56,998 nucleotides of DNA from Ignavibacteriota bacterium (GTDB taxonomy: Bacteria > Bacteroidota > Ignavibacteria > UBA10030 > SZUA-254). Location of the stretch: contig JANYJZ010000023.1 of the NCBI GenBank assembly GCA_025358305.1, positions 1-56,998 on the forward strand, given 5' to 3'. The notes under the pieces are model-generated. The model saw nothing but the letters and a program-made list of their open reading frames with translations, was not told where the DNA came from and ran no database searches. Of the stretch, positions 54,625 through 56,998 are shown in pieces. The position numbers were made by a program, and so were the translations under genes. Every line of letters starts with the position of its first letter. Within the stretch, counting starts at the first letter, position 1.

Positions 54625-56109
54625 ATGCCCAAGCGCACAGACCTCAAGTCCATCCTTATCATCGGCGCAGGACCGATCGTCATCGGCCAAGCCTGCGAAT
54701 TCGACTATTCCGGCACGCAAGCCTGCAAAGTCCTCCGCGAGGAGGGCTACCGCGTCATTCTCATCAACAGCAACCCCGCGACGATCATGACCGACCCGGA
54801 GTTCGCGGATCGGACCTATATCGAGCCGATCACCCCCGCGTTCGTCGAGATGATCATCGAGCGCGAACGCCCCGATGCCATCCTGCCGACGATGGGGGGC
54901 CAGACGGCCCTCAACACCGCGGTGGCCCTGGCCGAACAGGGCGTCCTGAAGAAATACGGCGTGGAACTCATCGGCGCGAAGCTCGAGGCCATCCAGCGGG
55001 CCGAGAACCGCGAGCTTTTCGGCAAGACCATGCGCGAGATCGGGCTCGCGACCCCGCGAGGAAGCTTCGTCAAGACCGTCGACGACGCCCTGAAGTTCGC
55101 CGAGACGACCGGGTACCCGATCATCATCCGGCCGTCGTTCACTCTCGGCGGGACCGGCGGCGGGACGGCGTACAACGCTGAAGAATACCGGACGAAGATC
55201 GCGCTTGCCCTGTCGGCGAGCCCGATCCACGAGACGCTCGTCGAAGAGTCGGTCATCGGCTGGAAAGAGTTCGAGCTCGAGGTTATGCGCGACCTCAAGG
55301 ACAACGTCGTCATCATCTGTTCCATCGAGAACGTCGACCCGATGGGCGTCCATACGGGCGACTCCATCACGGTCGCCCCGGCCCAAACGCTCTCCGACAA
55401 GGAGTATCAGTTCCTCCGGGACGCATCGGTGAAGATCATTCGGGCCATCGGCGTGGAGACGGGGGGCTCGAACATCCAGTTCGCCATCAGCCCGAAGGAC
55501 GGACGCATGCTCGTCATCGAGATGAACCCCCGCGTCTCGCGGTCCTCCGCCCTCGCCTCGAAGGCGACGGGGTTCCCCATCGCCAAGATCGCCGCAAAGC
55601 TTTCCGTCGGCTACACACTCGACGAGATCTCGAACGACATCACGAAGAAGACCCCTGCGTCGTTCGAGCCGACGATCGATTACTGCGTCGTGAAGATCCC
55701 GCGGTGGGATTTCGAGAAGTTCAAGGGCGTCGACGACACCCTGGGCATCCAGATGAAATCCGTCGGCGAGGCGATGGCGTTCGGCCGTACATTTAAAGAG
55801 GCGCTCCAGAAGGCCTTGCGGTCTCTGGAGACCGGACGGCACGGCCTGGGGGCGGACGGGAAGGACGCGTTCGACCCGGAGCTGCTCTCGGCCTCGGAAA
55901 AGGCGGAATGGATCGAGAAGGTGACCAACCGCCTCCGGATGCCGAAGGCGGACAACATCTTCTACGTACGCTACGGGCTCCTCCTCGGGATGAGCGTGGA
56001 GGAACTCCACGCGATCACGAAGATCGACGAGTGGTTCCTCCGGAACATCGAACAGATCGTCCGGATGGAGCAGGAACTGAAGGCATACGCGCTTCCCGCC
56101 GGCGTATAG
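54625..56109 (+). CDS. carB: Carbamoyl-phosphate synthase large subunit, N-terminal half
   Basis: 494 residues, about half of a normal CarB (near 1070). It contains the pre-ATP-grasp motif [25 protein letters not shown], a complete first ATP-grasp domain (about 130-335, ending [18 protein letters not shown]), and much of the oligomerisation domain (about 400-494, ending [14 protein letters not shown]). This half normally makes carboxy-phosphate and carbamate. The protein stops at TAG 56107-56109 in the middle of the oligomerisation domain; the remaining half is a separate gene at 56621. carA is not in view. Products would feed argF and pyrimidine synthesis. Confidence 0.92.
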
Positions 56110-56136
56110 GATACGACGAATGAAAGGAAATTGACC

Positions 56137-56610
56137 ATGCTAAAGTCACTCGCACTATTATTCCTCCTGGCGGCGTCTCTCGGCTCCGCCCAAGTGCCGT
56201 TGGACAAGGAAGCGCTCCTCAAGGGTGAGGGGGCGGGACAGGGGACCTACGCAGAGCTGAACGGGTATCCAGGTCCGAAGCACGTCCTCGACCTCGCGTC
56301 GACGCTCAACCTCACGACCGAACAGAAGCGGCACATCACCGAGATCTACAAGGCGATGGACTCGCGCGCGCGCGAACTCGGCGCGAGGATCGTCCACGTG
56401 GAGGACGAACTGAACACCGCCTTCCGCCAGGGCCTCGTCAACGAACGCTCGGTGAACGACGATGCGGAGCAGATCGGCCGATTGCGGGGCCGGCTGCGCG
56501 CGGTCCACCTTACGGCGCACATGAAGACGAAGGACTTTCTCACCCGAGCTCAGCTCGACATGTACAAGTCGCTCCGCGCCAAGGACGACCACAACCAGCA
56601 GACCCATTAA
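56137..56610 (+). CDS. Small periplasmic LTxxQ (Spy/CpxP-like) protein between carB halves
   Basis: 157 residues from ATG 56137 (AAAGGA nine bases upstream; a TTG at 56131 is too close to it). Signal peptide [19 protein letters not shown]. The mature part is helical and contains two LTxxQ motifs, LTTEQ and LTRAQ, with a long amphipathic helix between ([19 protein letters not shown] ... [17 protein letters not shown]). This fits the Spy/CpxP-like periplasmic chaperone/metal-stress group. It sits between the two carB genes with gaps of 27 and 10 bases, so it is probably co-transcribed; a direct link to carbamoyl phosphate synthesis is not evident. Confidence 0.8.
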
Positions 56611-56620
56611 CGGATCGAAG

Positions 56621-56998
56621 ATGGCAGTTCCCACGACAGAATTACTTCTCAGGGCGAAACGGTACGGGTTCTCGGACCGGCAGCTCGCGCATCTCTGGAA
56701 GACCGACGAAACGACCGTCCGCCGGTGGCGGAAGGGCCTTGGCGTCACGCCGGTCTTCAAGACCATCGACACCTGCGCCGCCGAATTTCAGGCGGAGACC
56801 CCGTACCACTACTCCACGTACGAGACCGAGACTGAGGTGACGCGCACTCCCCGGAAGAAGGTCATCATCCTCGGCGGCGGACCCAACCGCATCGGCCAGG
56901 GGATCGAGTTCGACTACTGCTGCGTCCACGGCGTCTTCGCGCTTGAACGCGAGGGGTACGAGACGATCATGATCAACTGCAATCCCGAGACGGTCTCG
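56621..56998 (+). CDS. carB: Carbamoyl-phosphate synthase large subunit, C-terminal half (partial)
   Basis: ATG at 56621, frame open to the window end (126 residues visible). It begins with the rest of the oligomerisation domain ([21 protein letters not shown], then the conserved [11 protein letters not shown]) and continues into the second pre-ATP-grasp domain, [19 protein letters not shown] and CNPETVS, as in residues about 500-620 of standard CarB. Together with the gene at 54625 the two halves cover the full enzyme with little loss. The 3' end, including the second ATP-grasp and allosteric domains, is outside the window. Confidence 0.9.

Follow-up and report, generated by a model that had tools for sequence, protein, structure and literature searches.

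A carB gene split by an LTxxQ-type gene, and apparent reversals of the split in Ignavibacteria

The carB locus at the end of the window

The DNA analysed here, called the window, is a stretch of 56,998 nucleotides from an Ignavibacteriota bacterium. It is contig C14 of a 42-contig draft genome of 3.2 Mb, and its last position (56998) is the contig end. At this end carB, which encodes the large subunit of carbamoyl-phosphate synthase, is present in two halves with another gene between them. The open reading frames of carB1, the inserted gene and carB2 form one tight unit, with spacers of 27 bp and 10 bp, and the three genes are presumably co-transcribed. The features of the locus are the following.

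54575..54604, + strand: promoter-like candidate upstream of carB1 (consensus scan, a weak lead only)
54625..56109, + strand: carB1, first half of CarB, 494 aa (open reading frame; Pfam)
56137..56610, + strand: inserted gene for a 157-aa LTxxQ / Metal_resist-type protein with a hydrophobic N-terminus (open reading frame; Pfam below cut-off)
56621..56998, + strand: carB2, 5' part of the second half of CarB (open reading frame from ATG 56621, which runs off the contig)
56897..56998, + strand: 102 bp identical to the terminus of contig C28 (assembly end within carB2)

The promoter-like candidate is the single hit of the consensus scan, compared with a mean of 0.4 in shuffles.

Pfam analysis of carB1 reveals CPSase_L_D1, L_D2 and then columns 2-55 of the 80 columns of the oligomerisation domain L_D3. 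carB2 restarts at L_D3 columns 59-80 (24.6 bits, slightly below the cut-off of 26.6) and continues with L_D1; the cut in the oligomerisation domain falls between profile columns 55 and 59. In the alignment with E. coli CarB, carB1 covers residues 1-477 and carB2 begins at 487, which places the cut in the linker of the oligomerisation domain. A preliminary description of this DNA had claimed a first half of 494 residues ending in the oligomerisation domain, a second gene resuming in the same domain and an unrelated gene between the two, and our analysis confirms this arrangement.

The second half could be followed past position 56998. The end of contig C28, read on the minus strand, is identical to the last 102 bp of the window, and a 507-aa open frame on C28 holds the remaining part of D1, followed by D2 and MGS. 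The complete carB2, joined over a 34-residue overlap of C14 and C28, is 599 aa in length with its stop at C28:75708, and contains pre-ATP-grasp, ATP-grasp and MGS domains. Loss of the later domains, which the preliminary description had named as a sign against its reading, is thus not seen. The two CarB halves are separate complete genes, each with an ATP-grasp domain, and the CarB domain set is kept between them. An intact carB elsewhere, named as a second such sign, was looked for and not found in this genome (100% complete by estimate); the other PF02786 (ATP-grasp) matches lie in frames of 386-552 aa, which are too short for a second whole CarB. One PF00988 match represents carA, on a separate contig (C24), and uvrA is located downstream of carB2.

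Upstream of carB1 the window contains matches to an ammonium transporter, ArgJ, an amino-acid kinase, a carbamoyltransferase and argininosuccinate lyase. The last four of these, together with a class-III aminotransferase, are matches of an arginine-type gene cluster at 42430-50942, about 4 kb before carB1. Further upstream, at 30426-34442 and 34690-42279, there are two very long open reading frames (1338 and 2529 aa) with coding-like composition.

The best start of the inserted gene is ATG 56137, the alternative listed start at 56131 being TTG. Its protein contains two literal LTxxQ motifs (LTTEQ and LTRAQ), and its N-terminus is hydrophobic by eye. The Pfam scores are 23.4 bits for LTXXQ (cut-off 24.3) and 20.1 bits for Metal_resist (cut-off 29.2). 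Because both are under the curated cut-offs, we name the protein LTxxQ-type and do not file it as a family member; the earlier designation as an LTxxQ protein is borne out by the motifs but not by the Pfam threshold. Among 14 aligned insert proteins, Metal_resist is matched in 12 and LTXXQ in 7 at E<=0.01. The AlphaFold2 model of the insert is helical (pLDDT 88.8). Comparison of this model with solved folds places CnrX first (TM about 0.7 by target length, best E 0.28), and no solved fold matches at E<=0.001. The inserts resemble the CnrX / LTXXQ / Metal_resist envelope proteins in the Pfam matches of the aligned set, and a CnrX-like fold is a candidate for the window's copy, which differs from the known members in staying below the curated cut-off. 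None of the known members was found inside carB in the searches made. The insert is probably an envelope protein of the broad LTxxQ / CnrX-like kind and is probably exported. No nuclease or transposase domain was detected in it by Pfam, and mobile cargo, considered as its nature, was ruled out because it has no mobile-element domain.

Split, interrupted and fused carB in relatives

The relatives are uncultured bacteria known from draft assemblies. Among the 81 genomes searched in the order, 64 gave carB matches at E<=1e-120; of 293 genomes that form a sample of the class, 248 gave matches at E<=1e-100. We inspected 97 carB loci of the window's lineage, 57 within the order (families f1, f4, f5 and f6) and 40 outside; they were picked from the better-scoring matches and not at random, so that the shares below are not class-wide rates. 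Outside these 97 are genomes with only a carB of about 50% identity, further matches in the class and partial matches in G012, G050, G051, G052, G077 and G079.

The preliminary description had proposed comparing related carB loci, and the same split with the same insert recurs in 23 of the 57 loci of the order, while 24 loci are fused. Four loci are split with only a C-terminal remnant of the insert (G019, G061, G062 and G074), five are split without a recognised insert (G033, G058, G067, G023 and G028), and one is split by a different gene of 351 aa with a Por secretion tail (G044). Counted by family, the LTxxQ insert is present in 6 of 6 loci in f1, 1 of 9 in f5, 16 of 26 in f6 and 0 of 16 in f4, and its position within carB is common to the three families f1, f5 and f6. 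The count of 23 includes G003, whose carB1 and insert are on two contigs. G032 and G057, where carB appears in several aligned pieces, were scored as fused as there is no stop at the linker. Length of the linker in fused carB loci ranges from about 1 to 44 residues, which suggests that the linker is tolerant of cutting.

The four remnants were recognised by local alignment, where none of 200 shuffles scored as high; tblastn found those in G019 and G061 and missed those in G062 and G074. The same test gave no remnant signal in G058, G033, G023 and G092 (71 to 109 of 200 shuffles as high). Two further loci, G067 with a weak signal (score 38, 0 of 200 shuffles as high) and G111 with a borderline one (5 of 200), were not counted as remnants.

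The 40 loci of other orders include carB with adjacent halves, with interrupted or widely separated ones, and as a fused gene. In f12 it is split in all eight loci; the aligned ends are 75-118 bp apart in seven of them and on two contigs in G178. All 13 loci of f10 are split and have no carB2 on the stretch examined around carB1; where one contig carries both halves, the distance between them is about 341 kb in G180, 151 kb in G210 and 112 kb in G172. Of eight f15 loci, five have the halves apart (about 71 kb in G104, on two contigs in the other four), two are interrupted, by a HAD hydrolase in G166 and by an IS200-like transposase, a HAD-like gene and more in G095, and one is fused (G129). 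The halves are apart in one f7 locus (G123) and fused in another (G087), and all nine loci of f8, f13, f18, f19, f20, f24, f28 and f29 are fused. Genes for IS200-like transposases are located just 3' of carB1 at L127 (G095), L125 (G149) and L150 (G210, under the cut-off). With the halves apart or several genes between them, it is possible that such elements were a route of separation.

When named genomes were scanned with the insert alignment, carB2 lay beside the gene in 15 of 53 loci, and carB1 as well in 14. The 15 carB2-adjacent loci are labelled Ignavibacteria, Ignavibacteriales or Ignavibacteriae in 14 cases and Bacteroidetes UBA10030 in one; for the remaining 38 loci, the stretch examined gave no carB match exceeding 40% identity.

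Three side observations concern carB in other genomes of this set. A second full-length carB of about 53-56% identity is present beside the carB of the window's lineage in G024, G046, G063 and G074 (f6) and in G053 (f4). In the f1 genomes G002, G004, G007, G011 and G014 the sole carB is fused and about 48-50% identical to carB1, as if the original had been replaced; LTxxQ copies persist as free-standing genes in G004 and G014, and that of G011 looks broken. Five f2 genomes (G015, G020, G025, G030 and G034; 91-100% complete) have no carB match at E<=1e-120, their best matches being at 7e-7 to 1e-5 or in the 1e-9 range, and they may have no such enzyme or a very different one.

Descent of the insert and history of the cut

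Phylogenetic analysis of carB used an order tree with f12 as outgroup, from which 9 of the 57 rows were left out because a half was missing or short or a frame was broken, along with two second copies, and a further tree for testing the grouping of f1, f5 and f6, from which 13 of 99 rows were left out. In the carB trees the rows group by family. A clade of f1+f5+f6 is compatible with the data, as the constrained tree is 3.9 log units better than the free tree (p-AU 0.54), and f4 may have branched off either before or after the insertion. At least 10 changes between the split and fused states are needed on the class tree and 6 on the order tree with the f12 outgroup.

Fused genes are nested among split ones at several places. 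Fused G037 pairs with split G049 of the same genus (100/97), and the gene neighbours of G049 are retained on both sides of the fused gene. Fused G046 lies within a 100/99 clade together with split rows of its own genus. AU tests, run post hoc once the trees were known, reject a clade of the split rows that excludes the fused ones in f6 (p=2e-10), in f1+f5 (p=1.6e-4) and in f15 (p=0.0008). Fused G055 is the first branch within f6, and because of this position its re-fusion is argued solely from the shared descent of the insert.

The tree of LTxxQ proteins (52 rows) places all 23 inserted copies in one clade of 27 rows (98/97), apart from the other 25 rows, which are free-standing. This clade also contains three free-standing f1 copies and one long-branched Gemmatimonadales row, which joins the insert of G036 weakly (88/57). 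The label "inserted" needs four changes on this tree, two of which are forced by strongly supported branches; together with the weak join, this makes it possible that the G036 insert was a separate arrival. Genome G004 (f1) carries the insert gene as a free-standing copy beside uvrA, the gene found downstream of carB2 in the window's genome, although the start of the contig cuts the view upstream, and the carB of G004 is fused, 48% identical and on another contig. This free-standing copy suggests that the insert may outlast a split carB.

We consider the following history, taken as a whole, to be probable. carB would have been cut at the length-tolerant linker of the oligomerisation domain by a complete small LTxxQ / CnrX-like gene, most simply once, in the ancestor of f1, f5 and f6. 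CarB1 and CarB2, produced as separate chains from closely packed genes, would then reassemble with CarA into a working carbamoyl-phosphate synthase of three chains. The insert would have an envelope function of its own, be kept by selection and be dispensable for CarB chemistry. Later the insert might decay, be lost or be replaced, the halves might drift apart, and in-frame deletion might re-fuse them. The split state can change, since the two chains must meet in any case. This history builds on what sequence comparison has established, namely the anatomy of the locus, its recurrence, purifying selection, inheritance along family lines, the remnants and the nested fused genes. Since carB is inherited by family and the fused genes sit within split lineages, re-fusion explains these fused genes best. 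The trees suggest that the cut in carB has healed on several occasions, so that gene splitting may be reversible.

It could be argued instead that a soft linker was cut many times independently, that LTxxQ genes entered more than once and that the fused lineages were never cut. Outside f1, f5 and f6 the cuts indeed look like independent events, or at any rate have no link to the insert (G044, f12, f10, f15 and G123), parsimony yields 10 changes for the class tree and 6 for the order tree but no direction for them, and the weak join of the G036 insert to the Gemmatimonadales copy would fit a second entry. However, the inserted copies fall in one clade in which the f1 and f6 groups are separate, matching the carB tree, remnants of the same gene are present in four split loci, and fused G037, G046 and G129 are nested among split rows. 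We therefore regard repeated fission as unlikely.

Nine pairs of relatives were used for estimating selection, with pN/pS given where dS is saturated. For carB1, dN/dS is 0.021-0.045 in seven pairs (pN/pS 0.076-0.126 in the two saturated ones); for carB2 it is 0.017-0.027 in four pairs (0.065-0.136 in five), and for the insert 0.045-0.157 in five pairs (0.19-0.34 in four). Judged by these rates, the insert and both carB halves are under purifying selection. The claim in the preliminary description that the split is a functional arrangement is supported by this selection in relatives and by the retained CarB domains.

A regulatory role of the insert is a further alternative, in which translation would pass from carB1 through the insert to carB2, and an envelope or metal signal, or export, would tune CarB2. 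Genes are overlapping or very close at many loci: based on predicted starts, the first in-frame ATG of the insert precedes the end of carB1 in 8 of 21 insert loci, and for carB2 the furthest upstream start candidate precedes the insert's end in 17 of 21 (it follows that end in three, and one locus has none). The recognised remnants all come from the C-terminal part of the insert, which would fit a role of its tail in starting carB2. However, 5 of the 57 loci are split without a recognised insert and 24 are fused, so that control based on the insert would be dispensable, and G004 has a free-standing insert gene without a split carB match. A regulatory insert is in our opinion quite improbable.

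Horizontal transfer of split carB between lineages, which would scatter the trait, appears very improbable. Replacement of a whole carB seems to occur in f1 (the five genomes with only a fused carB mentioned above), but the carB rows of the studied lineage group by family, and flanking genes are common to the loci tested, with seven loci as queries. A broken and decaying carB or an assembly fault is scarcely credible: the contig does end within carB2 of a 42-contig draft, and carB lies in several aligned pieces in G032 and G057, but both halves have low dN/dS in relatives, the CarB domains of the window's genome are complete, and in 14 named records a single contig carries carB1, the insert and all or part of carB2. 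These findings largely exclude decay and an artefact of the assembly join that the preliminary description had considered.

A more far-reaching combination seems doubtful to us. It would treat the CarB linker as a reversible fission site: after a single ancestral insertion in f1/f5/f6, the halves would have been re-joined at least four times in these families (in G037, G046, the fused f5 clade and G055) and once in a different order (G129). The insert, a metal-sensor-like gene, would be kept in place as a translational relay between the halves, through which envelope or metal status sets the output of carbamoyl-phosphate synthase, and its tail would outlive decay owing to the carB2 start region that it contains.

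The split enzyme among known systems

In Methanocaldococcus jannaschii, carB is likewise present as two genes; that host is archaeal. Carbamoyl-phosphate synthase of Aquifex aeolicus is described as encoded by split genes, CPS.A, CPS.B and GLN, whose synthetase halves and glutaminase form one complex and make carbamoyl phosphate (PMC6022934, PMC3917532). The Ignavibacteria locus is similar to that of Aquifex in that the two synthetase halves are encoded as separate chains and carA is separate. It differs in that an unrelated gene is present between the adjacent halves, and in that fused relatives nest among split ones. As the Aquifex enzyme consists of three chains in one complex, CarB1 and CarB2 are taken to pair with CarA, and by this analogy the split enzyme would assemble and be active; purifying selection on the halves fits such an active assembled enzyme.

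Insertion of a gene into a former reading frame is reminiscent of the mitochondrial cox2 of Campsomeris wasps, which is reported to be cut by inserted ORFs, including a putative nuclease, into two complementary genes (PMC5374615). In carB, likewise, the former reading frame now contains a complete gene and both parts are still coding. However, the carB insert has no nuclease or transposase domain, and carB shows apparent reversals. Split pheT of Altiarchaeales is described as cut at a poorly conserved, insertion-prone position and as common to the lineage (PMC4975002). The cut in carB also lies at an apparently tolerant position and is common to a lineage, but in that account fission is treated as a rare event and used as a phylogenetic marker, whereas the class tree of carB requires 10 or more changes of state. 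In the open-licence literature, no split carB in Ignavibacteria and no LTxxQ gene inside carB were found among the matches listed, in the parts of the sources seen. Split carB and insertional fission are already known; for the insert, its spread over three families and the reversals, the literature searched gave no earlier description.

Gene fission has been described as much rarer than fusion (PMC4009401, PMC11237513), and the split Aquifex enzyme has been read as a near-ancestral form (PMC3917532). Our comparison reveals one central enzyme that is fused, split, interrupted, separated and apparently re-fused within a single class, which weakens split carB as a sign of antiquity. Annotation pipelines may score such carB halves as broken genes. 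These loci provide a natural series for studying how proteins survive being cut and what decides their re-fusion.
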